Shown piece by piece: positions 7,965-60,349 of a DNA stretch of 64,000 nucleotides. The notes under the pieces are model-generated. The model had not been told where the DNA came from. It saw only the letters and a program-made list of their open reading frames with translations, and did no database searches. Origin of the DNA: Hymenobacter radiodurans. GTDB lineage: Bacteria; Bacteroidota; Bacteroidia; Cytophagales; Hymenobacteraceae. Where the stretch lies: positions 3,566,001 through 3,630,000 of the forward strand of contig NZ_CP037922.1 in NCBI RefSeq assembly GCF_004355185.1. The letters are read 5' to 3'. The translations under genes and the position numbers were made by a program. Each line of letters opens with the position of its first letter. Positions within the stretch are counted from its first letter, which is position 1.

Positions 7965-8752
7965 ATGCATTTCTTCTCCGCTGCATCTCAAATTTGCCCC
8001 CCACATTTGCGCGCAATGCTGGTAGCGTTGGGACTAGCTCTCGGATTTCTATCGGCTTGTAACCAGTATCAGCCCCCCGCCGAAACCGCTGAGCCCGAGG
8101 CCTCCACCACGCCCAACCTTCCCGGCCCCAACCTTATTGCCCTATCCGACAGCAACGTAGCTGCCCTCCTGACGCCTTACCTTCAGCAATACCCCGCCGA
8201 TGAGGTAATTATCCGCACCCGCCATGGCAATATGCGCGTACGCCTCTATGATGATACGCCGGTTCATAAAGCCAACTTTCTGCTACTGGCGCGCCGGGGG
8301 TGTTTGATGAAACCGTTTTTAACCGAGTTGTGAAAGGCTTTGCCATTCAGGGCGGACGGGGCGAAAATCGCACCATCCGGATTGCCCGCTACCGCCTGCC
8401 CCCGGAGTTTCGGCCCCAGCGTTTTCACAAGCGCGGCGCCCTCGGCATGGCCCGCTACGATGACGACCAAAATCCCGACCGCCGCTCCTCCTCCACCGAC
8501 TTCTACTTCGTGCAGGGAGAAAAACTCACCCCCGACCAGTCGCGCCAAATGGCGGGGCGCGCCCTCACTCCCGAGCAGGTCCGCACCTACGCTAGTGTAG
8601 GCGGCGTGCCTGCTCTGGATGGGAAATACACGGTATTTGGGGAGGTAGTTGAAGGCTTAGACGTAATTGACAAAATAGCCGCCGAGCCAGTCGACCCTTA
8701 CAAATGGCCGCTGAAAGACGTGCCGATAAAAATTGAGGTAGTAGAGAAGTAG
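7965..8752 (+). pseudogene. Lipoprotein peptidyl-prolyl isomerase (cyclophilin), single-base frameshift
   Basis: A cyclophilin-type PPIase that catalyses proline cis-trans isomerisation, here as a lipoprotein: a hydrophobic stretch and lipobox LSAC precede an Ala/Pro/Glu-rich linker. The cyclophilin domain begins at VIIRTRHGNMRVRLYDDTPVH and breaks at the G5 run 8296-8300. Adding one G gives LARRGVFDETVFNRVVKGFAIQGG, the conserved F-x-R-V-x-x-x-F-x-I-Q-G-G core, and a continuous 262-residue product ending in PLKDVPIKIEVVEK. Further family marks are PPEFRPQRFHKRGALGMAR, SSSTDFYFV and YTVFGEVVEGLDVIDKI. An alternative start at 8016 would remove 17 residues that include a GCCCCCC motif copy. The loss is probably recent or a sequence error. 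Confidence 0.85.
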
Positions 8753-8766
8753 AGTGTTTCTTGTGC

Positions 8767-9162
8767 TTATTCGCGGCGAATAGTTGTCAGCAGAATCTTA
8801 TAAGCATCGCCGGGCTGCGCTTGAGTAAACTCTCGCAGTTCCTGGCGCGAGAAGCTTTTAATATCATCGGGATTGAATAAGTTAGGCTCCTTCTCCAGGC
8901 TTAGATCGGCCGTAGTCACCTCACGGCGGGCCGGATGAAAGAAAGCGCTGTCGGCAGTGAACCGGACGAGCTGATAGTAAAAATAGCTGGGCTTGGTACT
9001 GCCTGCGGGCTGGTAGCTGACCACATACACATCGCCGGCCTTCGGATCGGTCAGATGATCTTGCAGCTTTTCTTCTGGACTCTGACAGCTTGCCAGCAGC
9101 CCAAGCAAGAAAAAGATACTGGGCAAAAAATACCGTAGTCGCGTTATTGATTGGCTTTTCAT
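8767..9162 (-). CDS. Small lipoprotein of unknown function
   Basis: About 131 residues with an N-terminal lipoprotein signal peptide (FFLLGLLASCQSP; lipobox L-A-S-C). The mature protein has short strands (GDVYVVSYQ, SYFYYQLVRF) and charged C-terminal helices, but I do not recognise a family. The ATG at 9162 is chosen because the 10 upstream in-frame codons run through an exact TGGGGGGCAAA motif copy and would spoil the signal peptide. It lies downstream of the M13 peptidase gene in the same orientation, separated by a strong terminator. Convergent with the cyclophilin gene. It probably sits in the inner leaflet of the outer membrane. Confidence 0.75.
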   Translation of the reverse strand: MKSQSITRLRYFLPSIFFLLGLLASCQSPEEKLQDHLTDPKAGDVYVVSYQPAGSTKPSYFYYQLVRFTADSAFFHPARREVTTADLSLEKEPNLFNPDDIKSFSRQELREFTQAQPGDAYKILLTTIRRE

Positions 9163-9243
9163 AAGCTTCTGGGGGGCAAAATGGATGGGCAAGAAGTAGC
9201 TTGTGTAAGCTCAAACGTGACTTGCCAGAACTTAGGTACAAAT

Positions 9244-9288
9244 ACACAAAAAAGGCGGTTCGCTGTATGCGGACCGCCTTTTTTGTGT
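9244..9288. terminator. Bidirectional intrinsic terminator
   Basis: ACACAAAAAAGGCGGT and ACCGCCTTTTTTGTGT (one unpaired base) form a long stem. It lies just beyond the stop of the M13 peptidase gene on the minus strand. Confidence 0.9.
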
Positions 9289-9307
9289 ATTTCAAAAGCG
9301 AATTGCT

Positions 9308-11404: not shown

Positions 11405-11507
11405 AAGTGGGTGGAAATGCGAAAAAAGAGGGGGAAATAGATAATTCGGTGAAGAAAGATAAAGAAAAGCTGCAACGCAATAATGGCGCGAGTAATAGCA
11501 AGTCACA

Positions 11508-11541
11508 AAAAAGCCCCCAGAGGTTTCTGGGGGCTTTTTTA
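11508..11541. terminator. Bidirectional intrinsic terminator
   Basis: A6-GCCCCCAGA, loop, TCTGGGGGC-T6, between the two tandem M13 genes. They are therefore probably transcribed separately. Confidence 0.9.
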
Positions 11542-11566
11542 CGCTTAAAATAAGATAAGCAAGTGC

Positions 11567-18476: not shown

Positions 18477-18505
18477 TTCCAGACAAGATATAGCATTGCT
18501 TCAGC

Positions 18506-18539
18506 AAAAAGCCCCCAGATACTTTCCGGGGGCTTTTTT
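18506..18539. terminator. Bidirectional intrinsic terminator
   Basis: A5-GCCCCCAGA, loop, TCCGGGGGC-T6. It ends the two-component operon and faces the convergent alkyltransferase-like gene. Confidence 0.88.
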
Positions 18540-19639: not shown

Positions 19640-19851
19640 GTGTCATAAGTGGCTAAGCGAACCGTTCTTAAAATGGCATTAAGAGCCTTGGGGGGCAAAA
19701 TAACGTTACAGACAGTGTGTTTGAAACACCTATTTACTCTTTTACAGCGGCCGCGACTAAACTTACTAAGGGGCCACGGCGTTCATATACATCGCTGCCC
19801 CAAAAGGTCTTTATACCACTGATACTGAGTTGGGAATAGCTCCCTCACCAC

Positions 19852-30739: not shown

Positions 30740-30787
30740 AAAAGCCCCCAGTGGTCTTTTATACCTTCTTCATTTTAATTTCTATAC

Positions 30788-30826
30788 AAAAGCCCCGCTT
30801 GCCTATTCAGGAAGCGGGGCTTTTTT
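30788..30826. terminator. Bidirectional intrinsic terminator
   Basis: AAAAGCCCCGCTT, loop, GAAGCGGGGCTTTTTT. It lies between the convergent thioredoxin-fold and aminotransferase genes. An unpaired A6-GCCCCCAG half-site sits about 45 bp before it, at the stop codon. Confidence 0.9.
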
Positions 30827-30869
30827 GTGCTTTAAGCCGAATATGTAATGCCTGCCTTGCGAGACAGCC

Positions 30870-35672: not shown

Positions 35673-35678
35673 TTATTC
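35636..35678 (+). terminator. Terminator-like hairpin
   Basis: GCCCCCGGAG pairs with CTCTGGGGGC (one mismatch) ahead of TTTATT. It is oriented on the plus strand and overlaps the last codons of the minus-strand adaptor gene, so its use is unclear. Confidence 0.35.
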
Positions 35679-36932: not shown

Positions 36933-36962
36933 AAAATAAGAGGGAGAAGCCACTGCGGGCAG

Positions 36963-39900
36963 CTATTGAACATCGGAGCCGGCCAGCGCCTGCAGCGCAA
37001 TAACAAGCTCATTATACTGGGTGGCCTGATCGAAATAGGCGGCTCGAATCTGCCACGCCGGCTCGGTATTCACCACGTAGGTCACGTAGTCGATGTCGCC
37101 GGCCCGCAGGCTTTTCTCGGCGGTGGTAAGGATAAGGCGGGCCTGGGGCAAGGCGGTCTGCTCGTAGTAGGTGATGGACGCGCGGGCGCGGGCAAGCTGC
37201 TGACGCAGCCCAGCCAACTGCCCCTGCAGCTGCACGGTGGCATAAGTCAGCTGAGTAGATGCCGTCTGTTCGGCAATGCGGGCGGCAGCGACTCTATTTT
37301 TCTGCACTCCACCGAGCAGCGGCAGCGATACGCCCACCTGCCCCACGTTAAAGCCGCCTTCTTGATTGATAGTCTGATTGAAGTAGCCAGCCCGCAGGTC
37401 GGGCAAGCGGCGTAGCTGCTCTACTTTGGTTTGCTGCTGACTCGCCACCATTTCCTGCCGTAGCAAGGCAAGTGTGGGGTTGGTATCAGCGCTCAGGCCA
37501 GCAGTGTCGGCGGCAGTCAGCGGAGCCAGCAGTTGGGTGGTTGTGTCGATGGTGGCCAGCATGCCGATCGTGCCCAGTAGCACACCCAACTGCTGGCGCT
37601 GCACCTGCACCTGAGTGCGCAGCGTAGCCAGACGATTACGCAGCTCCAGCGAGCGGGCCGCCGCCGACACCTGCTCGAGGCGGTTGGTTTCGCCGGTACG
37701 GTAGCGCACTTCGGCCGCGCGGGCAGCCCGGCTGTAGAGGCTATCCTGTTGGCGCAGCAGCGCGGTGCGGCGGTAATCGGTCAGTAATTGGTAATAGGCG
37801 CTGCGAATCTGCTGGGCAAGTTGGCGGCGCTGCACCCAACCACGCTGCTCGGCTGTTAGCACCTGGCTTTCCAAGAGGCGGCGTTGCGCGGTATACACCA
37901 TTGGCAGAGAGGTTTGCTGAATGATATTCACCGTTCGGTCGTTGAGCGGCCCCTGAATCTTGCCATACTGAATGTCGACCAGAGTGCGCGGAATGTCGTA
38001 GCCAGTGCGCGTTAACGCCCGTTGCCGACTCACCTCCAGCGTCGCTGATTCGATGAGCAGATTTTGCTGCAAACCGGTTTGCAGAGCCTGAGTCAACGTG
38101 AGCGGCGTGCCCGGCGGTGGCAGCACAGGCGGTGAAGTCGGCGCTGCCGACGAGGTTTGCGCGCTGACGGGCGTAGTCAAGCCCAAGATTCCTAGACTAA
38201 GGCCTACGAGCAGCACGACGCGGAAGGCGTGGCTGGCACCTGCCAAAGCTGGCTGCTCGGGTGCCTCGGTGGGGTCGTCGGATTCCGTCGGACTTGGCTC
38301 CCCATCTTTGGTGAACAGCGTATACAGAACTGGCAGCAACACCAGCGTGAGGAGAGTAGCCGAAATTAGCCCCCCAATAACTACCGTGGCCAAAGGCTTC
38401 TGCACCTCAGCGCCGGCCGCCTTCGAGAGGGCCATGGGCAGGAAACCCAGCGCCGCCACCGCCGCAGTCAGCAGTACTGGCCGGAAGCGCTCGGCGGTGG
38501 CTTTCAGCACGCGGGCGTGCACGCTTTTCACGCCCGCACCAGCAAATTCGTTGACGCTGGCCAGCAGCACAATACCATTGAGCACGGCCACACCAAAGAG
38601 AGCAATAAAGCCCACGCCAGCCGAGATACTAAAAGGCATACCCCGCACCCACAGCGCCAGGATGCCGCCAATAGCGGCCAGCGGGATGCCAGTGAAAATC
38701 AGCGCCGCCTGTTTCACGGAACGGAAAGACAGGTACAGCAGCAGAAAAATCAGGCCCAGCGCTACCGGCACGGCCACTTGCAGGCGGTCTTTGGCCTGCT
38801 GCAAGTTCTCAAATTGCCCCCCATACGCCAGCGAGTAGCCCGTGGGCAGTGGCAGGCCCTTCGTCAGGGTCTGCTGAATTTCTTCCACCAGGCTTTCCAC
38901 GTCGCGGTTGCGCACGTTCACCCCAATGTTGATGCGCCGCCGGGCATTATCACGCGACACTTGAGCCGGGGCGTTGCGAAAAGCCACCGTAGCCACCTCC
39001 GATAAAGGTATTTTTTGTCCGCTAGGCAAGTCTACGTACAGACTGTTCAAATCCTGCAAGCCCCGGCGGCTGGCCGAATCGAGGCGCACCACTAGGTCGT
39101 AGCGCCGCTCGCCCTCGTACACTTGCCCGGCCACGTCGCCGGCAAATGAGGCGCGCACCAGCACGTTCAGGTCGGCCACGTTCAGGCCGTAGCGGGCCAG
39201 CTTCTGGCGGTCGTAGAGTACGCGCAGCTGCGGCAGAGCCACAATCTGCTCCACTTTCAGGTCACCTACGCCGGCAAGTGGCCGAATCAGGGCGGCGGCC
39301 TGGTTGGCTTTGTCGTAGAGCACGTCTAGATCGTCGCCGTAGATTTTGATGCTGATATCGGACTTGGAACCCGAAATAAGTTCGTTGAAGCGCATCTGGA
39401 TGGGCTGCTGAAACTCCAGCGTGATGCCCGGAATGCCGGCTAGGGCCTCGTTCATCTTACTGGCCAACTCCTCGCGCGAGTCAGCCGAGGTCCACTGACT
39501 CTGATCTTTAAGTACTACAATCTGGTCCGAATCTTCCAAGGACATCGGGTCGGTGGGTATTTCCGAAGTCCCGATTTTGCCTACCACCTGCTCTATCTCC
39601 GGAAACTGGTTTAGCAGGATTTTCTGGACTTTGGTAGTAGTGGCAATGGTTTGGGAAAGCGAGCTGCCGGGCTTAATGCCCACATACACGGCGAAGTCGC
39701 CCTCATCGAGCTGGGGGACAAATTCGCCCCCCATACGCAGAAAAATGCCCCCCGCAACCAGCAGCAGTACCACAGCACCACCCACCACAGCGCGACGCAT
39801 GCGCAACGCGCCGTGGATAATGGGACGATAGCCGCGGTACAGGAATTTCATCAGGCGGTCGGCCAGCGTACCTTCCTCCTTGATGTCTTTGCGCAGCGCC

Positions 39901-41396
39901 CATGCGGCCACCGCCGGCACATAGGTCATGCACAGCAGCATGGCCCCAAGGATGGCAAAGCTCACCGTGAGAGCCATGGGCCGAAACATCTTACCTTCGA
40001 TGCCGGTCAGGGCCAGAATGGGAAAGTACACGATCAGGATGATGAGCTGCCCGAACAACGCCGAGCGCATCATGCGGGTAGCAGCCCCTTCGGCAATCTG
40101 GTCCATGGTTTCGTGCTGCGACTGAGCCCGGTGGTGTACCAACTGAAAAATCATGGCCTCCACAATAATCACCGCCCCATCGACAATCAGCCCGAAGTCT
40201 AGCGCCCCAAGCGACATCAGGTTGGCCGACACGCCGAAGGTGTGCATCAGTCCCAATGCAAAGAGCATACACAGCGGAATCATGCTGGCTACCACTAGCC
40301 CCGCGCGCAGGTTGCCCAGCACCAGCAGCAGCACCAGAATAACGATAATGCCCCCCTCAATCAGGTTTTTGCTTACCGTGTGAATGGCCTTATCAATGAG
40401 CTTGGTACGATCCAGAAACGGATCAATAGTCACGCCTTTGGGCAGCATTTTCTGGATTTCGACTACCTGCGCTTTTACGCCCTGGATAGTTTGTTCCGAC
40501 GAAGCACCTTTGAGCATGAGCACGATGCCGCCCACAGTTTCGCCCTTGCCGTCGCGCGTCATGGCTCCGTAGCGCATGGCGTGGCCGAAGCCCACCTCGG
40601 CCACATCGTGCACCAGCAGCGGCGTGGTCCCCGATTGCTTCACCACGATATTGCCGATGTCCTGCAGGGAAGTAACGCGGCCCTCACCGCGAATAAAGTA
40701 AGCGTTCGGACCGCGCTCTAGGTAGCTGCCGCCCGTGTTTGCGTTGTTGGCCTGCAGGGCCCGAAACAGCTCGGCCATGCTGACGCCCGCCGCGTTGAGG
40801 CGGTCGGGATTGACGCTTACCTCGTATTGACGCACGTAGCCGCCGAAGCTACTCACTTCTACCACGCCCAGTACGCTGGCCAGCTGCCGCTTCACTATCC
40901 AATCTTGGAGGTCGCGCAGATCAGATAGGGAGAACTTCTTCTCGTAGCCTGGCTCCACGCGTAGGGAGTACTGAAAAATTTCGCCCAAGCCCGTAGAAAT
41001 CGGCCCCATTTCGGGGCGGCCGGCGTCAGCGCCGAGGTTGCCTTCGGCTGATTTGAGCTTTTCGGCTACCAATTGGCGGTTGCGGTACGTATCGGCATCG
41101 TCGTCGAATACGACTGTGATGACCGAGAGGCCGAAACGCGAGTTAGAACGGATTTCCGTCACGCCCGGTACGGTCCGCAACTGCTGTTCCAGGGGCACCG
41201 TGAGCAATTGCTCCACTTCCTGCGCGGCCAGCGCCGGCGATTGCGTGATAACCTGAACCTGATTGTTTGTAATATCAGGAATGGCGTCTAGCGGCAGGCG
41301 CATGGCCGCATAACCACCCCAGGCAACGAGCCCCACGACCATCAGGAACACGAAAAGCTTGTTGCGGATGCTGGCCGCGATAATCTTAGAAAGCAT
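36963..41396 (-). CDS. CusA/CzcA heavy-metal RND pump fused to a TolC-like outer-membrane factor
   Basis: A 1477-residue fusion. Residues 1 to about 1040 are an HME-type RND permease: start MLSKIIAASIRNKLFVFLMVVGL, LPLDAIPDITNNQVQVIT, TM4 signature DFGLIVDGAVIIVEAM, second half FIALFGVAVLNGIVLLASVNEF. A charged linker follows, then a hydrophobic segment (about residues 1058-1076, VVLLVGLSLGILGLTTPVSA) with an A-x-A-like end before QTSS. Residues 1085-1477 are an OEP/TolC domain (LTLTQALQTGLQQNLLIES ... GFNVGQVGVSLPLLGG). The internal segment looks like a signal peptide, which would place the OMF domain outside the inner membrane. The start at 41396 discards 51 unconvincing upstream codons. 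Metal specificity unknown. Confidence 0.93.
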   Translation of the reverse strand: MLSKIIAASIRNKLFVFLMVVGLVAWGGYAAMRLPLDAIPDITNNQVQVITQSPALAAQEVEQLLTVPLEQQLRTVPGVTEIRSNSRFGLSVITVVFDDDADTYRNRQLVAEKLKSAEGNLGADAGRPEMGPISTGLGEIFQYSLRVEPGYEKKFSLSDLRDLQDWIVKRQLASVLGVVEVSSFGGYVRQYEVSVNPDRLNAAGVSMAELFRALQANNANTGGSYLERGPNAYFIRGEGRVTSLQDIGNIVVKQSGTTPLLVHDVAEVGFGHAMRYGAMTRDGKGETVGGIVLMLKGASSEQTIQGVKAQVVEIQKMLPKGVTIDPFLDRTKLIDKAIHTVSKNLIEGGIIVILVLLLVLGNLRAGLVVASMIPLCMLFALGLMHTFGVSANLMSLGALDFGLIVDGAVIIVEAMIFQLVHHRAQSQHETMDQIAEGAATRMMRSALFGQLIILIVYFPILALTGIEGKMFRPMALTVSFAILGAMLLCMTYVPAVAAWALRKDIKEEGTLADRLMKFLYRGYRPIIHGALRMRRAVVGGAVVLLLVAGGIFLRMGGEFVPQLDEGDFAVYVGIKPGSSLSQTIATTTKVQKILLNQFPEIEQVVGKIGTSEIPTDPMSLEDSDQIVVLKDQSQWTSADSREELASKMNEALAGIPGITLEFQQPIQMRFNELISGSKSDISIKIYGDDLDVLYDKANQAAALIRPLAGVGDLKVEQIVALPQLRVLYDRQKLARYGLNVADLNVLVRASFAGDVAGQVYEGERRYDLVVRLDSASRRGLQDLNSLYVDLPSGQKIPLSEVATVAFRNAPAQVSRDNARRRINIGVNVRNRDVESLVEEIQQTLTKGLPLPTGYSLAYGGQFENLQQAKDRLQVAVPVALGLIFLLLYLSFRSVKQAALIFTGIPLAAIGGILALWVRGMPFSISAGVGFIALFGVAVLNGIVLLASVNEFAGAGVKSVHARVLKATAERFRPVLLTAAVAALGFLPMALSKAAGAEVQKPLATVVIGGLISATLLTLVLLPVLYTLFTKDGEPSPTESDDPTEAPEQPALAGASHAFRVVLLVGLSLGILGLTTPVSAQTSSAAPTSPPVLPPPGTPLTLTQALQTGLQQNLLIESATLEVSRQRALTRTGYDIPRTLVDIQYGKIQGPLNDRTVNIIQQTSLPMVYTAQRRLLESQVLTAEQRGWVQRRQLAQQIRSAYYQLLTDYRRTALLRQQDSLYSRAARAAEVRYRTGETNRLEQVSAAARSLELRNRLATLRTQVQVQRQQLGVLLGTIGMLATIDTTTQLLAPLTAADTAGLSADTNPTLALLRQEMVASQQQTKVEQLRRLPDLRAGYFNQTINQEGGFNVGQVGVSLPLLGGVQKNRVAAARIAEQTASTQLTYATVQLQGQLAGLRQQLARARASITYYEQTALPQARLILTTAEKSLRAGDIDYVTYVVNTEPAWQIRAAYFDQATQYNELVIALQALAGSDVQ

Positions 41397-41645
41397 ACGA
41401 TGAGAGGTTGTGCTCAGAGGCTGCGCCACCAGGGTGCAGAGCCGAATGGTACGAACTGGCGCGGGGCTAGGGGGACAAAAAAGCCCCCCACCAGACTCGA
41501 ACCAGATAAGCATAGCGATGTTGCAGTCGCTAATAGCGAGTTGCTGCAACAGTGAGCAAGAGGTAAAAGCAAATAGGTCAGGACAGACCTGGGGCTTGGC
41601 CCCTTAATTCGGGCTGGGCAGATAACGCCCTTGATTACCTTAGAA

Positions 41646-42047
41646 CTAGGCTCGCGGTGGCTGCAAAAGCCCCCCGCAGTAAGCGTAGGTGTAAGAAACC
41701 GTAGCCACCGATTGATACGAGCAAGCTGGCCTACGCGGACCTGAGATAGCCACAATCAACTGCTGGGCAGGTACCACGTATTCCAGATTTGGGCAATGGT
41801 GCTGCCCATGGAGCGGTAGCTGATCGTGCTCAGGCGAGGGAGGACATTGATACATGGCCGTACTGCCCGCGCCGTAGTGCGTACCCAGAAATTGCCGAAA
41901 CGAGAGCTCCCCGCCTTGTGTGGATTGGTGGAATTTGTAGTGTTGCACCAGCTGCGGCAGCTTGCCCAGCTCTTCCACGTCGTTCTGCGGCATCAGGCCA
42001 CCAACGAGCATAATCAGGCTAAGAAATAGGGCTACAACTGGTTGCAT
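41646..42047 (-). CDS. Small His/Cys-containing protein before the metal pump
   Basis: A 133-residue exported or membrane-anchored protein: hydrophobic N terminus MQPVVALFLSLIMLVGGLMP, then LGKLPQLVQHYKFHQ and GELSFRQFLGTHYGAGS. A His-rich segment follows (PPSPEHDQLPLHGQHHCP), then a segment LEYVVPAQQ. Small proteins with the same order (leader, L-x-x-H-Y-x-x-H, then HYG, then a His-rich part) stand before CzcA-type genes in many Bacteroidota. The His and Cys residues suggest metal binding, but no function is established. It is co-directional with the pump fusion gene, about 250 bp upstream, with three GCCCCCC motif copies in the gap. Confidence 0.75.
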   Translation of the reverse strand: MQPVVALFLSLIMLVGGLMPQNDVEELGKLPQLVQHYKFHQSTQGGELSFRQFLGTHYGAGSTAMYQCPPSPEHDQLPLHGQHHCPNLEYVVPAQQLIVAISGPRRPACSYQSVATVSYTYAYCGGLLQPPRA

Positions 42048-42055
42048 ACTGGCCA

Positions 42056-42063
42056 CAAAGGTA
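42056..42063 (-). promoter_or_regulatory. Putative -7 box of the metal-efflux operon
   Basis: Minus-strand TACCTTTG matches the Bacteroidota TAnnTTTG box 8 bp before the start of the small His/Cys protein. A TTG at the proper -33 distance was not found. Confidence 0.35.
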
Positions 42064-42241
42064 AGATGACTCGCCAATAGTAGCCTCCAGCAGAGATAGA
42101 ATTATGAAAACGGACTGGCGCTGGCCGGCCAACATAGTGGGTACACTCCCTAACAGTGCGCAACACCTAGAACTCGAAGGCAGTAGATTTTATAGGTCGG
42201 GAGAACAGTGCACGCGCCCCTACGCATATTCTTAATAAAGC

Positions 42242-42277
42242 AAAAGCCCCATTTCTTATTCGGAAACGGGGCTTTTT
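42242..42277 (-). terminator. Terminator of the tRNA-Ser pair
   Basis: AAAAGCCCC and GGGGCTTTTT with further pairing (TTTC/GAAA) lie directly after the 3' end of the tRNA-Ser genes on the minus strand. Confidence 0.85.
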
Positions 42278-42279
42278 GT

Positions 42280-42363
42280 AGAGAGCGAGGGATTCGAACC
42301 CCCGGAGGTTTAACCCTCAACGGTTTTCAAGACCGCCGCAATCGACCACTCTGCCAGCTCTCT
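42280..42363 (-). tRNA. tRNA-Ser (UGA)
   Basis: Acceptor stem AGAGAGC/GCTCTCT, D arm with GGTCGATTGCGGC, anticodon loop CTTGAAA (anticodon TGA), a long variable arm (GTTGAGGGTTAAACCTC) typical of class II tRNAs, and T loop GGTTCGAATCC. No CCA is encoded in the gene. Confidence 0.95.
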
Positions 42364-42389
42364 AGGTCACGCGTAATTTTAATCAATGC

Positions 42390-42475
42390 AGAGAGGGGGG
42401 GATTCGAACCCCCGATACCGTTGCCGGTATAACGGATTTCGAATCCGTCGCATTCGACCACTCTGCCACCTCTCT
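42390..42475 (-). tRNA. tRNA-Ser (CGA)
   Basis: Acceptor stem AGAGAGG/CCTCTCT, anticodon loop TTCGAAA (anticodon CGA), long variable arm (TATACCGGCAACGGTATC) and T loop GGTTCGAATCC. It lies 26 bp upstream of tRNA-Ser(UGA) on the same strand, so both are probably made from one transcript. Confidence 0.95.
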
Positions 42476-42583: not shown

Positions 42584-43579
42584 TCAGGTTTTCTCAACCG
42601 TGGCCAGACGCCGTCCACTGATAGCCACAGGTAGGTTTGCAATGGTCCGCAGACGCCCCGTAACGGCATCTATACTGACGTTCACCTCAAAGCCCAGAAT
42701 CAGGGTCATGCACACAAAATCCAGCCACACCATAAAGCCCACCAGCGTACCGATAGAGCCATAAAAGTGGTTGTAACTGTCGAAAATCTTGATGTAGAGA
42801 ATGAATAGAAAAGATACCAAAAAGATGAGCAGCGTAGCTACTACCGCGCCTGCCGAGAGGAAAGGCCATTTGTCGTGCACGGGCGGCACGTAGTAATAAA
42901 TGACACAAGTGATGAGCAGGAATAGCCCGGCAACTGATCCGTATTTGAGCAGGTTAATCAACTGATTAGTCAGTTCAGCGGGCACTATTTCGTAGAATAC
43001 CAGCGTATCGATGATATACGTGCCGAAGAAAATGCCCGCTATGGCGAACAAAAGCACGAACGATAGCACAATGGTCAGCAGGGTGGCAATGACACGCTTG
43101 CGCACGTAGGTTCGGCGCTTAAACGACGGATATTTCTTCTCAAACGCATCCAGCAGAGCCATGATACCATTGGAGGAAAGTACTAGCGCCGTCAGAAAAC
43201 CGAAGGACAGCAACCCGCCGTGCGGGATGTTGATGATGTCCTCAATAGTATCGGCCGTAGCCACATACATTTCGCGGGGCATGATATCGCGCAGAAACTG
43301 AAGGATATCAATGTTCAGCTGCGGAATAGGGATGTAGGGAATAAGCGTGAACAGGAATATGATAGTGGGGAAAATGGCGATAGTAAAGTTGAACGCCATG
43401 TAACTGGCCCGCTTGGTGATGCTGTCCAGCTTCAGCTCCTGAATCATGCGGTCGAGCACATCGTACACCGATGCTTGGCCGTGGTTGAAGCGCAGGCGCT
43501 TGAGCCACACGATGAACTTGCGGTATGAACGCCGGCGGCGCACCTCGGAGTAGTGGTAGCGGCGAACGGGGTTTCTCAT
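42584..43579 (-). CDS. YihY/BrkB family membrane protein
   Basis: A 331-residue inner-membrane protein of the YihY/virulence factor BrkB family with about six helices. Family features: MIQELKLDSITKRASYMAFNFTIAIFPTIIFLFTLIPYIP (helix 1), LLSFGFLTALVLSSNGIMALLDAFEKKY, IIDTLVFYEIVPAELTNQLINLLKYGSVAGLFLLITCVIYYYVPP (V-P-P after the helix is typical), and FYGSIGTLVGFMVWLDFVCMTLILGFEVN. The molecular function of the family is unproven despite its old name (RNase BN). The N terminus is strongly basic. Monocistronic or first after the thioesterase group. Confidence 0.92.
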   Translation of the reverse strand: MRNPVRRYHYSEVRRRRSYRKFIVWLKRLRFNHGQASVYDVLDRMIQELKLDSITKRASYMAFNFTIAIFPTIIFLFTLIPYIPIPQLNIDILQFLRDIMPREMYVATADTIEDIINIPHGGLLSFGFLTALVLSSNGIMALLDAFEKKYPSFKRRTYVRKRVIATLLTIVLSFVLLFAIAGIFFGTYIIDTLVFYEIVPAELTNQLINLLKYGSVAGLFLLITCVIYYYVPPVHDKWPFLSAGAVVATLLIFLVSFLFILYIKIFDSYNHFYGSIGTLVGFMVWLDFVCMTLILGFEVNVSIDAVTGRLRTIANLPVAISGRRLATVEKT

Positions 43580-43701
43580 AGATCAACGGTCAACGTACAA
43601 TCGGCATAACAATTTGCCCCCCAGAAGGTGTTCATCGTTTCCTGCTTTCCTTTCCAATCACATGAACTCAGTGACAGAAGGCTGCTTGCAATCAAGAACT
43701 G

Positions 43702-44205
43702 TTACTTATCCTTTTTAGGAGCAAAAGCCGCGGGTGCTGGAGCGTCGGGGGGCAATTTAGAAGACGTAGGCGTAAGCGGTCCAGCTGTTTCGTCCTCGGT
43801 AAAGTAGGGAGCGAGCTTATTTTGGATAGCGTCGGGAATCGGAACTGGCCGACCTGTAGCCGTACTTACAAACACCATCAGCGTATGGCCTTCGGTGAGT
43901 AGCTCTAAGCCTTCGTTGTAGATCTCGTATTCAAACATTACCCTCGACCCTTCCGCTGGCTGGCGCAGCAACAATCTCACGGTTAGCAAGTCGTCGTAGC
44001 GGGCGGGGCGGCGGAAGCGGGTGCGTATCTCCCCTACTGGCATGCCTACGCCATCGGCTTCCAAATCTTTGTACCGGATACCTAATTGCCGAAAAGCTTC
44101 CGTCCGGGCGACCTCGAAGTAGGCGGCATAGTTGCCGTGGTACACGTAGCCCATCTGGTCGGTTTCGGCATAGCGGACGCGGATTTGGATATCGGAAGTG
44201 TACAT
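43702..44205 (-). CDS. 4-hydroxybenzoyl-CoA thioesterase-type (YbgC-like) acyl-CoA thioesterase
   Basis: A 167-residue hotdog-fold thioesterase that hydrolyses acyl-CoA in the cytoplasm. The active-site block RVRYAETDQMGYVYHGNYAAYFEVAR carries the catalytic Asp16 and the conserved H-G-N-Y. The rest of the hotdog follows as IRTRFRRPARYDDLLTVRL and VMFEYEIYNEGLELLTEGHTLMVFV. A C-terminal extension of about 35 residues is Pro/Ala/Thr-rich and includes a GGGGGGCAATT motif copy in its codons. It begins 16 bp after the mltG stop, so it is likely in one operon with mltG. Confidence 0.92.
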   Translation of the reverse strand: MYTSDIQIRVRYAETDQMGYVYHGNYAAYFEVARTEAFRQLGIRYKDLEADGVGMPVGEIRTRFRRPARYDDLLTVRLLLRQPAEGSRVMFEYEIYNEGLELLTEGHTLMVFVSTATGRPVPIPDAIQNKLAPYFTEDETAGPLTPTSSKLPPDAPAPAAFAPKKDK

Positions 44206-46248: not shown

Positions 46249-46289
46249 CATAAAAAAGCCCCCAAAGAGATCTTGGGGGCTTTTTTATG
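46249..46289. terminator. Strong bidirectional terminator
   Basis: CATAAAAAAGCCCCCAA and TTGGGGGCTTTTTTATG form a 17-bp perfect stem between convergent genes. Confidence 0.92.
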
Positions 46290-54634: not shown

Positions 54635-55462
54635 ATGTCTCAGTTTCCTCCTCCCCCACCTGCTCTGCCTCTTACACTTACCGATCAGATGGGACGGCGC
54701 GTGGTGGTACCGTATCCGCCGCAACGAATTGTGTCGCTGGTGCCTTCGCAGACGGAGCTTTTGCACGATTTAGGTTTGGGGAAAAAGGTAGTTGGGGTAA
54801 CCAAATTCTGCCTTCATCCAGCCGACGCGCGGCAGCAGGCTACTGTAATCGGTGGCACCAAAAATTTTGATTTTGAGAAGCTTACCGCGCTAAAGCCTGA
54901 TCTTATTATCGGGAATAAGGAGGAAAATTATCAGGAAGGCATTGAGCAGTTGGCCGCGCTTTATCCGGTGTGGCTCAGCGACATTAGCACCCTTACCGAT
55001 GCCTTGCGCATGATTCGGCAGGTGGGCGTGCTGGTAGGTGCCAAGGCCAAGGCTGACCAAATGGCGGCAGCTATTGAGCATTCCTTTGCGCAGCTTTCGC
55101 CTCTTTCGGAGGCAGTGTCAGCCGCCTATTTCATTTGGCGCAAACCGTATATGGCGGCGGCGGCAGACACGTTTATAGATGATATGCTGACGCAGGCAGG
55201 TTTTACCAACGTATTTGCCCCCCAGCAGCGCTATCCAGAAATTTCAGCAGAGCAGTTGGCTGCGGCCGCGCCGCGTGTTGTCCTATTGTCGTCGGAGCCC
55301 TATCCATTTGCAGATAAGCACATTGCGGAGTTTCTGGCAATTTGTCCTTCAGCCCAAATCCGGATAGTGGACGGAGAATTATTCAGCTGGTATGGCAGCC
55401 GGCTGCAACACTCGGTGGCGTATTTTGCTGCGTTAAGAGCCACTGTGGTACCTAAAGTGTAA
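54635..55462 (+). CDS. BtuF/FecB-like helical-backbone metal receptor
   Basis: A 275-residue protein of the class III (type II) periplasmic binding fold, related to the cobalamin and siderophore receptors. It has the typical LTDQMGRRVVVPYPPQRIVSLVPSQTELLHDLGLGKKVVGV opening and the ISTLTDALRMIRQVGVLVGAKAKADQM helix. It has no signal peptide (starts MSQFPPPPP) and no ABC permease or ATPase neighbours, so it may act in the cytoplasm or with distant partners. An exact TTTGCCCCCCA copy is read as FAPQQ (55214-55224). Ligand unknown. Convergent with the shikimate operon. Confidence 0.88.
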   Translation: MSQFPPPPPALPLTLTDQMGRRVVVPYPPQRIVSLVPSQTELLHDLGLGKKVVGVTKFCLHPADARQQATVIGGTKNFDFEKLTALKPDLIIGNKEENYQEGIEQLAALYPVWLSDISTLTDALRMIRQVGVLVGAKAKADQMAAAIEHSFAQLSPLSEAVSAAYFIWRKPYMAAAADTFIDDMLTQAGFTNVFAPQQRYPEISAEQLAAAAPRVVLLSSEPYPFADKHIAEFLAICPSAQIRIVDGELFSWYGSRLQHSVAYFAALRATVVPKV

Positions 55463-55519: not shown

Positions 55520-56752
55520 CTAAGCTTTGAAGCCTGCCTGTTTCAGCTCATTCCAGAAGCTGGGATACGACTTGCGAACTACCTGGGGGGCATTTATGGT
55601 TAGTGGGCCGCGCAGCGCTAGCGGAGCGAAGGCCATAGCCATGCGGTGGTCGTGGTAGGTGGCGATGGTTTGGCCATCTACTTTAAAACCAGTAGCCGCA
55701 ACGCGAAATACATCGGGTTGCACCTCAGTGAATGTAGCGCCGAATTTGGCTAGCTCGGTTTGGATGGCCAGAATACGATCCGTTTCCTTGATGCGCAGGC
55801 TTTCCAGGCCGGTCATTTCTACGTTTACGCCTTGAGCAGCGGCTATTACGGCTACGGTTTGAGCTAGGTCGGGGCAATCGGTGAAGTCTTGGGAGAAGCC
55901 ACCCGTTATGGGTTGCTGGGTGAGCTGTACGCCATCGGGTAGAAATTCGGTGGCTACGCCCAGCCTCTCCATTATGCCCACAATTGCCTGGTCGCCTTGC
56001 AGGGAGTGGCGGCGCAGCCCTGGCAGGTAAATTTGCCCCCCAGCCGGCGATAAAGCCACCATCGCATACCAATAGCTGGCCGCCGACCAGTCGGCCTCAA
56101 TAGCATAATCGGCGGGCTTATAGGCAGTGGGGCGCACCTCCAGCACAGAGCCCAAATCGCGGCAGTCGGCGCCAAAATGCTGCATAAGTGCCAGCGTCAT
56201 GCGGATGTAGGGCCGTGAACCGACTTTGCCCGTCAGGAATAACCGCAGCCCGCCGGGGAGTTGGGGCCCGATCATCAGTAGCGCCGAAATATATTGGCTG
56301 CTAATGTCGCCGCGCACGGTGAGTTCAGCCATATCTGTAGAAGGCAAATTTGCCCCCCAACCCTTGATATGAAGCGGTGGATATCCTTCCTTTTCTGCGT
56401 AGTCGATCTGCATTCCGAGCTGGCGCAGAGCATCAACGAGGACGCCGATGGGACGCTCCCGCATGCGAGCAGTACCAGTAAGCAGCACGCGCCGGTCGGT
56501 GACGGATAAGTAGGCCGTGAGGAAGCGCATGACAGTGCCGGCATCTTCCGCATCGAGCGTATCGGCGGCGGGGCTGGCCAACAGCCGACGCATGAGTTGG
56601 GTGTCGTTGGCGTCGGAGAGATTGGTGAGTGAGCCGTTACCAGCAAGGGCCTGAATGATAAGGGCGCGGTTGCTTTCACTCTTGGATGCTGGCAGTTGGG
56701 CGGTGCCCCGTAGGGGGTCGCCGGGCCAGGATAATGTTATGGAATCGGGCAT
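55520..56752 (-). CDS. aroA: 3-phosphoshikimate 1-carboxyvinyltransferase (EPSP synthase)
   Basis: A 410-residue enzyme that condenses shikimate 3-phosphate and PEP. Motifs: LPASKSESNRALIIQAL (the L-P-x-S-K-S-x-x-x-R-A PEP site), DAEDAGTVMRFLTAYLS (N/D-A-G-T), LTGTARMRERPIGVLVDALRQLG (the R-x-R-P-I motif), DISSQYISALLM, EADWSAASYW, CPDLAQTVAVIAA (catalytic Asp) and GLESLRIKETDRILAIQTEL. The C terminus ends GLTINAPQVVRKSYPSFWNEL-like. It contains several motif copies in its codons (55587, 56032, 56349). The start at 56752 is chosen over 56779. Third gene of an operon with DAHPS-CM and aroB. Confidence 0.96.
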   Translation of the reverse strand: MPDSITLSWPGDPLRGTAQLPASKSESNRALIIQALAGNGSLTNLSDANDTQLMRRLLASPAADTLDAEDAGTVMRFLTAYLSVTDRRVLLTGTARMRERPIGVLVDALRQLGMQIDYAEKEGYPPLHIKGWGANLPSTDMAELTVRGDISSQYISALLMIGPQLPGGLRLFLTGKVGSRPYIRMTLALMQHFGADCRDLGSVLEVRPTAYKPADYAIEADWSAASYWYAMVALSPAGGQIYLPGLRRHSLQGDQAIVGIMERLGVATEFLPDGVQLTQQPITGGFSQDFTDCPDLAQTVAVIAAAQGVNVEMTGLESLRIKETDRILAIQTELAKFGATFTEVQPDVFRVAATGFKVDGQTIATYHDHRMAMAFAPLALRGPLTINAPQVVRKSYPSFWNELKQAGFKA

Positions 56753-56798
56753 TCTGGGTATCAGAAAAGTAACGCGCAAGGCGTGGGAGACTTGTTTT

Positions 56799-57845
56799 TT
56801 AGCTCAAGAGGCGATGATAATAGCGCAGGGAACTGGCTATCTCCTCTACGCTTACAGGCTGGTCGTAAATGGCATTGCCAATACCTTCCAGCAAGGTACA
56901 ATTGATGGTAGAGCCAGCATTTTTCTTGTCCTGAAGAGCCAGTTCGGCAATGGCATCGGTTTCGAGCGTAACAAACTGCACCTTTTCGAATACCGAGAAT
57001 AGGAACGTCTCAATCTTGTCCAGCTCTTCTTCGCTCAGAAGGCCTTTCTGCACAGAGAGCCAGCTTTCGCAAATCATACCGGCGGCAACGGCTTCGCCGT
57101 GCAGAATCTCACGGCCGGGCTGGCTGAGCAGGTAGCTTTCGAGGGCGTGGCCCACGGTGTGGCCGAAATTAAGCACCTTACGCAAACCGCTCTCCAGCGG
57201 ATCGGCAGCTACAATGCGCTCTTTGGTCACGACTGACTCGTGAATAATAGGGCCCCACTCGTCCACAAAAAAGCCAGTGCGCCGATGGTGTTCAAACGCG
57301 GCAGCGTCCGCAATCAGCCAGTGCTTCACTACTTCCGCGTAGCCGGATTTGAGCTGGCGGGGGTCGAGTGTATTCAGAAACCGAGGCTCAATGAACACGG
57401 CCGCCGGGGTCTGAAATACCCCGAGCTGGTTCTTAAAATTTTGGAAATCGATGCCGGTTTTGCCCCCCACACTGGCATCTACCTGGGCCAGCAGCGTGGT
57501 AGGCACCTGCACGAAACGAATGCCGCGCTTATAAAGCGCCGCACAAAAGCCCCCCAGATCCGTAACCACGCCGCCACCAAGGTTTACGAGCACCGCAAAA
57601 CGGTCGGCGTGGGCTTGGGTAAGCGCTTCCCACACGGTTTCGCAGGTAGCCAGCACTTTATATTCTTCCCCGTCCGGAATCTCGATAGTTATGTGATTAT
57701 CAGGCAGGAATTCGCGCAGACGCGGGTAGCAGAGTCGAATGGTATTGGCGTCGGCTAACACAAAAACCTGACTCACGGCCGGCTGGCGCAGTAAGTCGGC
57801 AAGTTCGATCAACGCGTGGGGGCCAATGGCGGGAGTGTCTTGCAA
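56799..57845 (-). CDS. aroB: 3-dehydroquinate synthase
   Basis: A 348-residue NAD- and metal-dependent enzyme converting DAHP to 3-dehydroquinate. NAD-site marks: VLVNLGGGVVTDLGGFCAALYKRGI and VPTTLLAQVDASVGGKTGIDFQNFKNQLG. Metal ligands: KSGYAEVVKHWLI (Glu), LNFGHTVGHALES (His) and EILHGEAVAAGMI (His). The length is normal. Two GCCCCCC motif copies fall in its codons (57459-57469, 57543-57550). It lies between the DAHPS-CM gene and aroA on the same strand with gaps of about 50 bp each. Confidence 0.96.
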   Translation of the reverse strand: MQDTPAIGPHALIELADLLRQPAVSQVFVLADANTIRLCYPRLREFLPDNHITIEIPDGEEYKVLATCETVWEALTQAHADRFAVLVNLGGGVVTDLGGFCAALYKRGIRFVQVPTTLLAQVDASVGGKTGIDFQNFKNQLGVFQTPAAVFIEPRFLNTLDPRQLKSGYAEVVKHWLIADAAAFEHHRRTGFFVDEWGPIIHESVVTKERIVAADPLESGLRKVLNFGHTVGHALESYLLSQPGREILHGEAVAAGMICESWLSVQKGLLSEEELDKIETFLFSVFEKVQFVTLETDAIAELALQDKKNAGSTINCTLLEGIGNAIYDQPVSVEEIASSLRYYHRLLS

Positions 57846-57896
57846 GGGATGGATGGGTTAGCGGAGAACAATCGAAAGCACAGGTAGTAAAGACGG

Positions 57897-58994
57897 CTAT
57901 TCCGGGTTCTGGTTCATAATCTCAGTTTGCTTACGAATGCTTTCCAAGTGAATCAGCTCGTACAGTTTGGCCACAAACGGGTCATTCAGGCGCAATTTTG
58001 CCCCCCAGTCTCGCCGCGACGCGAATATTTCCTGCCAGCGGTCCATCTGCAAAATCTTTACGTTGTTCTCCTTCTTGTACTCGGCCAGCTGCTCTACCAA
58101 CGCCATACGCGCCGCTAGCGCCTCCATCAATTCCCGGTCGGCCGTGTCTATTTGCTGTCGGAGCTCCTCGGCTTTATTCAGGAAATCGGCATTGTTGGAG
58201 GAGCGGTAACGGTACTTCAGCTCTGACAAAATCTCGGCTAGCCGCGCTGGCGTTACCTGTTGCGCCGCGTCGGAAAGGGCATTATCGGGGTCAGGATGCG
58301 TTTCAATCATCAAGCCGTCATAATCCAGGTCGAGCGCCTTTTGCGAAACGGGCAGAATTAGGTCGCGGCGGCCGCTAATATGGCTGGGGTCGCAGATGAG
58401 AGGCACTTGGGGAAAGCGCGCTTTCAGCTCAAACGCCAGTTGCCACGTGGGGGCATTGCGGTAGCGGGATGGCGCAAACGTGCTAAAACCGCGGTGAATA
58501 GCGGCTAAATCGGTGATACCCACGCGCTCCAGCCGCTCCAAAGCACCCGCCCACAACGCCACATCTGGGTTCACCGGGTTTTTAACCATTACAGGCACAC
58601 CCGTACCAGCCAGCGCTTCGGCTAACTCCTGCACAGCAAAGGGATTAACGGTGGTGCGGGCCCCAATCCAGAGTACATCAATGCCGTGGCGCAGGGCGTC
58701 TTCTACGTGGCGCGGCGTGGCTACTTCTATAGTTACAGGCAAGCCTACCTCCTCCTGTACCCGCTGCAACCACGGTAGCGCGGTGGTGCCCATGCCCTCA
58801 AACCCACCAGGTTTGGTGCGAGGCTTCCAAACGCCCGAGCGGAACAGATCTACTTGACCTATTGCTTTCAGAGCGCGGGCGGTGGTAAGTACCTGATCTT
58901 CAGTTTCGGCGCTACAGGGGCCCGCAATGAGCAACGGCAGCCCTTTGTTGGCTAGCAAGTGGGTAAAAAAAGTGGCTTTGGCAGTAGTATCCAT
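57897..58994 (-). CDS. Bifunctional DAHP synthase/chorismate mutase
   Basis: A 365-residue fusion. The N-terminal part (about 1-255) is the AroA-beta/KDO8PS-type 3-deoxy-7-phosphoheptulonate synthase: LPLLIAGPCSAETEDQVL, FRSGVWKPRTKPGGFEGMG, IEVATPRHVEDALRHGIDVLWIGARTTVNPF, MVKNPVNPDVALWAGALERL, VPLICDPSHISGRRDLI. The C-terminal part is an AroQ-type chorismate mutase (LRQQIDTADRELMEALAARMALVEQLAEYKKEN). The same fusion is typical of Bacteroidota. It is the first gene of the operon with aroB and aroA. Alternative starts at 59000 or 59030 add only a few residues. Feedback control by the mutase domain is inferred from relatives. Confidence 0.95.
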   Translation of the reverse strand: MDTTAKATFFTHLLANKGLPLLIAGPCSAETEDQVLTTARALKAIGQVDLFRSGVWKPRTKPGGFEGMGTTALPWLQRVQEEVGLPVTIEVATPRHVEDALRHGIDVLWIGARTTVNPFAVQELAEALAGTGVPVMVKNPVNPDVALWAGALERLERVGITDLAAIHRGFSTFAPSRYRNAPTWQLAFELKARFPQVPLICDPSHISGRRDLILPVSQKALDLDYDGLMIETHPDPDNALSDAAQQVTPARLAEILSELKYRYRSSNNADFLNKAEELRQQIDTADRELMEALAARMALVEQLAEYKKENNVKILQMDRWQEIFASRRDWGAKLRLNDPFVAKLYELIHLESIRKQTEIMNQNPE

Positions 58995-59100
58995 GTACAT
59001 AAACGCGGGTTCGGGAGGGGGCAGCCCCAAAAAGCCCCCAGCTCCTCAAGTAAGGGGATTGGAAAAAGAGCGGGCTGCAAGGTAACTCTACCGGTCAAAA

Positions 59101-59149
59101 CGTTGTTTAAAACCTATCTTCGCCCACCCAAAAGCGTTGTTTAAAAACC
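59101..59149 (+). repeat. Direct repeat in the proline dehydrogenase promoter region
   Basis: CGTTGTTTAAAACC at 59101-59114 and CGTTGTTTAAAAACC at 59135-59149 are near-identical direct repeats spaced 34 bp apart (about three helical turns), just before the proline dehydrogenase start. TTTAAA is itself palindromic. A regulator-binding role is inference. Confidence 0.55.
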
Positions 59150-59158
59150 ACCCGCTCT

Positions 59159-60349
59159 ATGTTAGCCACCCACGCCCCGTCTCTGTCCTTCAACGATACC
59201 GCTGTTGCCTTTGCTTCTAAATCTGATGCCGAATTGCGCCAGATGTATGCGCTATTCGCGGCTATGAACAATAACACCCTGGTAAAAGCTGGGGGCGGCA
59301 TGATGAAAGCAGCGCTCAAATGGGGCCTGCCAGTGAAGTTTCTGATCAAGAAAACCATCTTTGAACAGTTCTGCGGCGGCGAGACCATTCAGGAGTGCCT
59401 GCCCGTAATCGAAGAGTTGGGCCGCTACAACATCGGCACTATCCTCGACTACTCGGTGGAGGGCGAAGGCAGCGACAAAAGCTATGATCACACGCGCGAC
59501 GAGATTTTGGCCACCATCGATTTGGCGCATCGTTCCACTCATATCCCCTTCTCCGTATTTAAAGTAACTGGCCTCGCCGACAGCGTTATTCTGGAGAAGG
59601 TGCAGGCCAAACAGACGCTCACTCAGGCTGAGCAAGCCAGCTTTGAGCGCTCTAAAGCCCGAGTGGATGCTATTTGCGCCCGCGCCCACCAGTATGGAGT
59701 GCGTGTGTTCGTGGATGCGGAAGAAAGCTGGTTTCAGGAAACCGTTGATAACATGGCGTATGAGATGATGGCCAAATACAACCGGGAGTCGGCTATCGTT
59801 TGGAACACCTACCAGCTCTACCGTCACGACCGTTTGGAAGCAATTGAGCAAGCGTACGAAACTGCCAAACGTGAAGGATATTACCTGGGGGGCAAATTGG
59901 TGCGGGGTGCGTACATGGAAAAGGAAAGCCGTACTGCCGCTCAGCGTGGCTACCAGAACCCCATCAACCCTACCAAAGAAGCCACCGATCAACTATATAA
60001 CGAGGCGCTTCGCTACTGCGTAACCCACGTCGACCGCATTAGCATTTGTGCCGGCACCCATAATGAGGCAAGCTCCTTATTGCTCACTGAACTGATGCAG
60101 GAGCACAACTTACGGCCGCAGGATACGCGCATCTGGTTTGCGCAACTCTATGGTATGAGCGACAATCTGAGCTATAACTTGGCAAATGCAGGCTATAACA
60201 CGGCTAAGTATGTACCCTATGGTCCGGTGGAGGCGGTCATGCCTTATCTATTGCGCCGCGCCGACGAGAATACTGCCATTGCAGGCCAAAGCAGCCGGGA
60301 GTTTTCGCTTATTCAAAGAGAAATGACGCGACGTAAGAGCAAAAAATAG
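59159..60349 (+). CDS. Proline dehydrogenase
   Basis: A 396-residue FAD enzyme oxidising proline to pyrroline-5-carboxylate. Marks: TIFEQFCGGETIQECLPVIEELGRYNIGTILDYSVEGEGSD (the entry to the barrel), IPFSVFKVTGL, VRVFVDAEESWFQ (conserved D-x-E), YYLGGKLVRGAYMEKE (the K-L-V-R-G-A-Y motif), CAGTHNEAS (H-N-x-x-S), and the C-terminal YGMSDNLSYNLANAGYNTAKYVPYGPVEAVMPYLLRRADENTA, which contains the R-R-x-x-E-N substrate site. Stand-alone, without the P5C dehydrogenase domain. An exact motif copy is read as GGK (59886-59896). Confidence 0.95.
   Translation: MLATHAPSLSFNDTAVAFASKSDAELRQMYALFAAMNNNTLVKAGGGMMKAALKWGLPVKFLIKKTIFEQFCGGETIQECLPVIEELGRYNIGTILDYSVEGEGSDKSYDHTRDEILATIDLAHRSTHIPFSVFKVTGLADSVILEKVQAKQTLTQAEQASFERSKARVDAICARAHQYGVRVFVDAEESWFQETVDNMAYEMMAKYNRESAIVWNTYQLYRHDRLEAIEQAYETAKREGYYLGGKLVRGAYMEKESRTAAQRGYQNPINPTKEATDQLYNEALRYCVTHVDRISICAGTHNEASSLLLTELMQEHNLRPQDTRIWFAQLYGMSDNLSYNLANAGYNTAKYVPYGPVEAVMPYLLRRADENTAIAGQSSREFSLIQREMTRRKSKK

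Follow-up and report, generated by a model that had tools for sequence, protein, structure and literature searches.

Why does one short word, in which an A/T tract precedes GCCCCCCA, recur throughout a 64-kb stretch of Hymenobacter radiodurans DNA (contig NZ_CP037922.1, positions 3,566,001 to 3,630,000; hereafter the window, meaning the whole stretch analysed)? The word is spread all over the chromosome of one small Hymenobacter group and, judged from sequence comparisons and genome-wide analyses, is probably, with a likelihood of about 0.55, a DNA uptake sequence of that clade. The window holds 13 exact copies of TTTGCCCCCCA, compared to 0.06 expected from shuffles and 0.08 from an order-3 Markov model. 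An earlier note on this DNA had counted 12 and put the expectation at well under one; the expectation was sound, and the thirteenth copy, at 3798-3808, lay outside its range. Its view that relaxed copies add to the exact ones is likewise borne out by 32 GCCCCCCA against 2.98 expected and by 69 W4GCCCCC, although part of this relaxed set consists of paired arms, AAAAAAGCCCCC...GGGGGCTTTTTT, of intergenic terminator-like hairpins, which the note had not separated. Over the whole genome (4.92 Mb) 835 copies of TTTGCCCCCCA were counted, 428 and 407 by strand, and none of the reversed control word. A chromosome sample of 464 kb, made of the window and 20 evenly spaced 20-kb stretches, contained TTGCCCCCCA 98, TTTGCCCCCC 105 and AAAAAAGCCCCC 104 times (4.5, 4.8 and 0.48 expected under an order-4 Markov model), and 454 W4GCCCCC, or 0.98/kb. 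The test proposed in the note, a genome-wide count set against a Markov model of order 3 to 5, thus comes out far above expectation in this order-4 sample, and chance or composition is ruled out as the cause by the shuffle and Markov values.

The profile of genic sites shows a 5-6 bp A-tract, mostly of the form AnTm, then GCCCCCC and an A; it is flat past about +8 and non-palindromic. AnTm tracts, which lack a TpA step, account for 70/104 of the genic W6 before GCCCCCC versus 346/1278 genic control tracts before G, and for 121/162 when intergenic hairpin arms are counted in. Among 204 Hymenobacteraceae genomes, four (G000, which is H. radiodurans itself, G071, G073 and G095) hold 706-864 copies and the other 200 hold 0-9; these carriers are H. 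radiodurans, H. qilianensis, Hymenobacter sp. BT188 and G073. In a sample of 395 Bacteroidota genomes, only that of H. radiodurans has more than 10 copies, and the two surveys rule out a motif general to Hymenobacter or Bacteroidota. For the DAHP synthase gene, the named relatives H. qilianensis and BT188 stand at 94% and the other 78 loci kept at 81% or less. A tree of this one protein, obtained by a quick method from 73 rows with G073 left out, united the window, H. qilianensis and BT188 on a long stem of their own (support 100, branch 0.28). Since these three carriers group together on this stem, the word probably spread along it.

Conservation was measured by aligning the window to BT188, H. 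qilianensis and G073, whose overall aligned identities to it are 86.8, 85.2 and 83.5%, respectively (this order is kept below). Genic motif columns were identical at 96.4, 93.9 and 93.5%, compared to 86.0, 78.8 and 79.1% in the 20-base flanks, which fall below the aligned average in all three comparisons. Third codon positions were identical at 72/78, 74/81 and 53/58 within the motif (91-98%) and at 196/284, 171/298 and 121/223 in the flanks (54-69%). The whole word was unchanged at 18/22, 15/23 and 13/17 aligned genic sites, which answers favourably the question, raised in the note, whether positions are conserved in sister species. Each control word offered only 0-6 aligned genic sites, which does not allow a strict comparison; the commonest, GCCAGC, was mildly high at third positions (16/19, 15/19 and 6/7) and the others showed no consistent excess. 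The DNA uptake sequences (DUS) of Neisseria are 97% identical and lie in slightly more permissive DNA (PMC2397512), and flanks less conserved than the aligned average repeat this pattern. At the conserved GGKT and LGGF of aroB, the word has GGG instead of the synonymous GGC that the seven printed non-carriers show. Across aroA, aroB and the DAHP synthase gene, the motif differs from non-carriers partly synonymously and partly with an amino-acid change (WGAKL versus WAGKL, WASKL and others), and one of seven aro/DAHP sites examined is missing in both named carriers. By these alignments, the motif is maintained where the protein code is free to vary.

Genes were called with our own simple hexamer caller, which differs from standard annotation. 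The 464-kb sample contains 418 W3GCCCCCM sites, of which 66 are in inverted +- pairs and 352 are lone. The lone sites comprise 139 antisense and 103 sense sites in called genes (242 in all) and 110 outside genes, with genes covering 85% of the DNA, and the 242 genic ones fall into the six orientation-phase classes as 81, 59, 38, 34, 24 and 6. The spread over both strands and every codon phase described in the note is therefore real, and extends to both gene orientations, but it is uneven. Its contention that selection on protein does not account for the copies stands: this cause is ruled out by the spread over orientations and phases, by the conserved third positions and by a motif that differs from non-carriers both synonymously and by amino-acid change. 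Copies per 5-kb bin are Poisson-like (variance/mean 0.99, 92 bins), and the coefficient of variation of the gaps between lone sites is 0.94, versus 0.97 (sd 0.05) under random placing, with gaps under 150 bases somewhat few (27 versus 36.7, sd 5.2). No leading/lagging bias of lone sites was seen with the origin placed either by GC skew (167:185) or at dnaA (179:173), and the most biased origin placement in a scan gave 204:148. The note had also likened the word to polarised chromosome-maintenance motifs; the lack, under both placements, of the co-orientation with replication expected of Chi or KOPS speaks against a replication-polarised motif.

On a second contig of the same genome (C1, 190 kb, 160 kb of it examined), W4GCCCCC occurs at 0.11/kb, about ninefold below the chromosomal density, whereas bare GCCCCC is about equally dense on both (1.49/kb on the chromosome and 1.57/kb on the contig). 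The chromosome/contig ratio is 8.7 for the motif and 0.3-2.3 for six control words placed after W4. What is established of C1 is that it is a separate contig; we would guess that it is a plasmid. Four exact copies among the matches listed on C1 all lie within 24 kb (58017-82053), a piece perhaps of chromosomal origin. Another stretch (C2, 3700001-3720000; L096) has a low GC content of 0.446 and a relaxed-motif density of 0.35/kb, with 7 sites over 20 kb, of which 3 are exact copies as well; it is perhaps a recent acquisition.

The paired sites have a distinct placement, as 65 of the 66 lie outside called genes and the opposite -+ arrangement holds 12 sites. Terminator-like hairpins were collected by one simple sequence rule, termination being predicted from sequence only. 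Their stem ends in GGGGGC in 67/118 cases in H. radiodurans (55/94 without the window) and in 30/63 in the stretches of the other carriers (BT188 14/25, H. qilianensis 13/23, G073 3/15). Among non-carriers, this stem end was found in 0/144 hairpins from 47 loci and in 0/132 from 40 further Hymenobacter stretches, and in Pontibacter in 1/23 (14 loci). These counts are not independent, because the stretches taken from the three carriers correspond by orthology to the window and the 47 loci represent a single region sampled in many species; the 40 stretches are spread. About 55% of high-confidence Neisseria terminators hold the uptake word, as do 17-29% of those of Pasteurellaceae, and the A-rich start of extended uptake words, which in Neisseria begin with A/T letters, provides the tails when two words stand in the +- arrangement (Kingsford et al. 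2007, PMC1852404). The motif hairpins show the same +- geometry as these uptake-word terminators.

Other Hymenobacteraceae contain dense words of their own, namely AGGTATAG, AAGTATAA, AACTATAR, CTACCCCC, ACCTAGGG and CCCTAGGG. They were first found by word counts in 80 named loci, mostly of 11 kb, and were then counted in new stretches; the following counts are from the new stretches alone, and combined samples also take in the discovery loci. AGGTATAG occurred 38 times in 40 kb of P. amylolyticus, AAGTATAA 43 times in 40 kb of P. anaerobius and AACTATAG 61 times in 40 kb of P. burrus. In Hymenobacter, CTACCCCC was counted 45 times in 60 kb of strain UV11 and 38 times in 40 kb of H. ginkgonis, and CCCTAGGG 28 times in 60 kb of H. 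polaris, while ACCTAGGG was present 16 times in 22 kb of Solirubrum and 13 times in 25 kb of H. setariae. In these stretches the reversed words turned up 0-4 times, and H. norwichensis had, over 40 kb, 3 AGGTATAG and none of the other dialect words. Over whole genomes, AGGTATAG reached 4748 and 4434 copies in two Pontibacter (controls 90 and 92), compared to 28-314 per strand in the remaining 18 of the 20 genomes, and ACCTAGGG reached 2643-3106 in five genomes, 896-988 in three and 337 in one, with no more than 90 in the remaining 195 of the 204. The dialect words are 20- to 48-fold over expectation in the combined samples (15-fold in H. setariae). Codon-driven octamers also exceed simple expectation, by about sixfold (CCTGCTCG, 32 versus 5.5 in UV11), and CTGCTCAA (13 versus 0.92 in G015) was left out as probably codon-driven. 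Single 20-kb samples gave as further candidates CTAGGCCA (G034, L204) and GTAGGCCA/GTGGCCTA (G036, L233), at about 1/kb, and CCCTACCC (G027).

On the DAHP synthase tree with word-less rows left out, each word with at least two rows forms one group, except ACCTAGGG, which requires two changes; with word-less rows included, 9 changes are required. In Neisseria, too, the DUS dialects track the core-genome tree (PMC3630211). Within Pontibacter, 92/426 aligned AGGTATAR sites read AAGTATAR in species of another dialect, where 0.39 were expected, an expectation that leaves out inherited similarity, and species pairs repeat sites. When four of the ten AGGTATAG species were set against three, the second letter was A in 36 cases, C in 12 and G in none where the other letters agree. 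Such alignments, in which the same place and strand of the aro region carries the word with its dialect letter swapped (L050/L058/L063/L064), are suggestive, but only that, of dialect switching in place. Dense octamers were noted in L050-L056, L058-L064 and L068 (Pontibacter), in L025, L033, L047, L031 and L032 (Hymenobacter) and in L041 (Solirubrum), and many of them contain CTA/TAG or TATA, unlike the window motif. The repeated ACTCACTC of Rufibacter glacialis (L070, 6083-6134) is a tandem repeat and not a dispersed word.

Most of these measurements match those of published uptake sequences (conserved words, permissive DNA, terminator pairs and dialects), and this match is the ground for regarding the motif as one. 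Published uptake sequences have a density of the order of 0.98/kb. They generally number at least 1,000 copies per genome (PMC1852404) and are scarce in acquired DNA (PMC2397512). In the mechanism that we propose, a clade-specific DNA-binding component of competence, putative and probably located at the cell surface but not a type IV pilin, would bind the A-tract together with the G/C tract. DNA bearing the motif would be favoured in uptake and would enter the chromosome by recombination through a ComEC/DprA route, so that copies would accumulate and be kept at about one per kb in chromosomal DNA by transmission bias, selection or both. Paired copies would have been recruited as transcription terminators, and other receptor specificities would have given rise to other words, the dialects, in related lineages.

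The Neisseriaceae DUS resemble the motif in occurring about once per kb, in being non-palindromic and present on both strands, with A/T letters before a G/C core, and in being highly conserved within more permissive flanks; in both, about half of the terminators are inverted pairs and dialects are clade-specific. The Hymenobacter case differs in belonging to Bacteroidota, in the failure to find an ATPase of type IV pili or type II secretion systems, in relatives' words that differ more among themselves, and in that the motif is known here from sequence alone. As no such ATPase was found, a ComP-like pilin is not expected. The uptake signal sequences of Pasteurellaceae have a density of about 1/kb, as has the Hymenobacter motif. 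They share with it an A-rich start, a G/C core and the co-option into terminators, whereas the motif is without downstream A/T tracts and, again, no pilus ATPase was found.

In Bacteroidota, transformation of Riemerella anatipestifer employs ComEC, DprA, ComF, RecA and a further four proteins that have no homologues in known machinery, and DUF5689 is a domain of a predicted surface protein needed for this transformation (PMC8459023). Riemerella columbina favours its own DNA in a competition test, and the words listed for it are A/T-rich (PMC7965970); we find these words unconvincing as uptake words. Together, transformation and self-preference in Riemerella indicate that a self-preferring uptake route with unfamiliar parts exists in this phylum. 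A strong DUF5689 match (E under 1e-15) was obtained in 17 Hymenobacter genomes, 16 of them sampled by one stretch of at most 20 kb, with G115 judged by its ACCTAGGG count alone and with no fixed word threshold. A dialect-like word was seen in G012, G023, G027, G029, G034, G080, G096, G115 and, weakly, G079, and no clear word in G017, G055, G059, G100, G116, G122 and G125; G117 gave only 4 kb. The 24 sampled genomes without a strong match included words in G036, G037 and G065, and weak ones in G028 and G038, and took in G015 with its CTGCTCAA; G037 (H. ginkgonis) and G065 (H. polaris) repeat genomes of the combined dialect samples. Because words are present both with and without a strong match, no firm link between DUF5689 and dense words emerges in the sampled Hymenobacter. 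A further 30 DUF5689 loci of 2.4-3.7 kb were too short for words to be judged.

Several observations speak against an uptake function. The type II secretion/type IV pilus ATPase (PF00437) was found in 0/9 genomes, with 14/14 known genomes positive as control, in a search that did not extend to secretin or pilins; the machinery of the proven uptake cases was thus not found. ComEC and DprA are each present in 9/9 genomes; as they are also present in non-carriers, they are not diagnostic. DUF5689 had no match in the four carriers, and no published report of competence in Hymenobacter was among the listed open-licence PubMed Central titles. In G073, only 3 of the 15 hairpins carry the word. An 11.5-kb segment of the window (30752-42260), unaligned at the syntenic place in the three other carriers, has a motif density of 0.96/kb, hence not all variable DNA is depleted. 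No strong word was found in many of the sampled Hymenobacter, nor in 11 full-length stretches of the genera g2-g4, and the palindromic CCCTAGGG and the diversity of the relatives' words fit a HIP1-like system as well. The likeness to DNA uptake sequences drawn in the earlier note thus gains support from the density, the conservation, the use in terminators, the dialects and the scarcity on the second contig, and is weakened by the missing ATPase; of the comEC and pilus genes that it suggested looking for, comEC was found and the pilus ATPase was not. Reading the starts of the called proteins around comEC in H. radiodurans, with no family search run, revealed no obvious uptake gene.

A wider proposal, to which we give slightly less than even odds, is that Hymenobacteraceae have a type-IV-pilus-free, sequence-specific and self-recognising uptake, whose receptor specificity changed repeatedly and left at least seven dialects of about four types, at about 0.5-1.5 copies/kb, in different clades. 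The types would be AnTm-GCCCCCCA; CTACCCCC; ACCTAGGG with CCCTAGGG; and AGGTATAG, AAGTATAA with AACTATAR. Sequence-specific DNA uptake is firmly known in two families, which use type IV pili. If the motif is an uptake sequence, the new features would be another phylum, no pilus ATPase found and several word types in one family. Such a third case, arising independently in Bacteroidota and lacking the pilus ATPase, could lead to a DNA receptor of a new kind. Sister clades with different uptake words would allow a specificity and thousands of sites to be followed as they change in concert, which is relevant to whether selection or molecular drive is responsible. Even with another function, several words at about 1/kb in sister clades call for a common mechanism. 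No report of the motif, of its sister words or of competence in Hymenobacter or Pontibacter was among the listed titles of open-licence PubMed Central full texts.

The motif might instead be a recombination hotspot of the Chi class, regulating an intracellular helicase-nuclease of the RecBCD/AddAB type and protecting self DNA, with a change of specificity driving a new genome-wide word. It resembles Chi as an abundant word tied to self DNA with one G-rich strand (TGGGGGGC), and its density, lineage specificity, conservation and depletion on the second contig would all suit such a role. However, known Chi sites are sparser than about 1/kb and shorter than the A-tract plus core. Chi is polarised with replication in E. 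coli (PMC8022716), whereas the split of lone sites given above (204:148 at the most biased origin placement) shows no co-orientation, and we regard this explanation as rather unlikely.

The earlier note's comparison with HIP1 of cyanobacteria (GCGATCGC) is retained as an improbable alternative. Here, a clade methyltransferase would recognise part of the motif, and DNA methylation with mismatch repair would keep the word by a repair or gene-conversion ratchet. HIP1, too, is very abundant, lineage-wide and replaced by other words in some strains; methylation-dependent mismatch repair has been proposed to create HIP sites, and exceptional strains have new HIP sequences (PMC4390886). The turnover of words between lineages and the palindromic word of H. 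polaris fit this explanation. However, HIP1 is palindromic and overlaps methyltransferase sites, while the Hymenobacter motif is asymmetric, like most of the relatives' words, and forms terminator-like pairs; a ratchet acting locally would not be expected to alter the two arms of a terminator stem in matching fashion. Nor would it deplete a contig that shares the cell and has an equal density of GCCCCC, unless that contig had recently arrived.

A binding site for an abundant nucleoid or chromosome-organising protein, reading the shape of the A-tract together with the G/C tract, would agree with the uniform spread of copies and with the excess of AnTm among genic tracts, which suggests shape readout. 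Alone, it predicts neither different words in sister lineages nor the rewriting of half of the terminator-like hairpins, and it would not by default lead to depletion on the second contig; we consider it quite improbable. A motif that is only a transcription-terminator stem preferred by this clade, as the inverted pairs outside genes and the 67/118 hairpins might suggest, is hardly tenable, and as a full explanation is refuted by the 242 of 418 sites that are lone genic copies, in both orientations and with conserved third codon positions.

Within the window, the exact copies in called genes are distributed as follows. That at 3798-3808 (minus strand) is antisense in gene 3497-4177 (plus) and unchanged in BT188 and H. 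qilianensis. Sense copies lie at 30368-30378 (plus) in a thioredoxin-like gene (30122-30739, plus) and at 55214-55224 (plus) in a periplasmic binding protein gene (54635-55462, plus), both unchanged in the three other carriers, and at 34397-34407 (minus) in an Omp85-like gene (33117-34481, minus), with no alignment in the other carriers. Antisense copies on the plus strand are found in aroA (called 55520-56752, minus) at 56032-56042, encoding GGQ where non-carriers most often have GSE, and at 56349-56359; in aroB (56799-57845, minus) at 57459-57469, the VGGKT site with the GGG codon; and in the DAHP synthase/chorismate mutase gene (57897-59030, minus) at 57997-58007, the WGAKL site. A minus-strand copy at 59886-59896 is antisense in a proline dehydrogenase-like gene (59159-60349, plus). 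Outside called genes, the copy at 7993-8003 (plus) is just upstream of gene 8016-8333, which would take it in with an earlier start at 7965, and that at 9170-9180 (minus) is inside a longer open reading frame (8767-9192). Intergenic copies are at 19689-19699 (minus) and at 43613-43623 (plus), the latter between 42584-43579 and 43702-44205, unchanged in BT188 and with one core letter different in H. qilianensis and G073.

Inverted pairs forming terminator-like hairpins are located at 1602-1636, 18505-18539 and 46252-46286, each between convergent genes, at 4198-4232 between 3497-4177 (plus) and 4242-5309 (minus), and at 11507-11540 and 61895-61929. The non-syntenic segment at 30752-42260 encodes a CzcA-like RND transporter besides the Omp85-like gene; BT188 has, at another place, an 83% relative of the large RND transporter gene. 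The edge of this segment is adjoined by a pair of neighbouring tRNA-Ser genes (42278-42475; anticodons TGA and CGA), a possible integration point.

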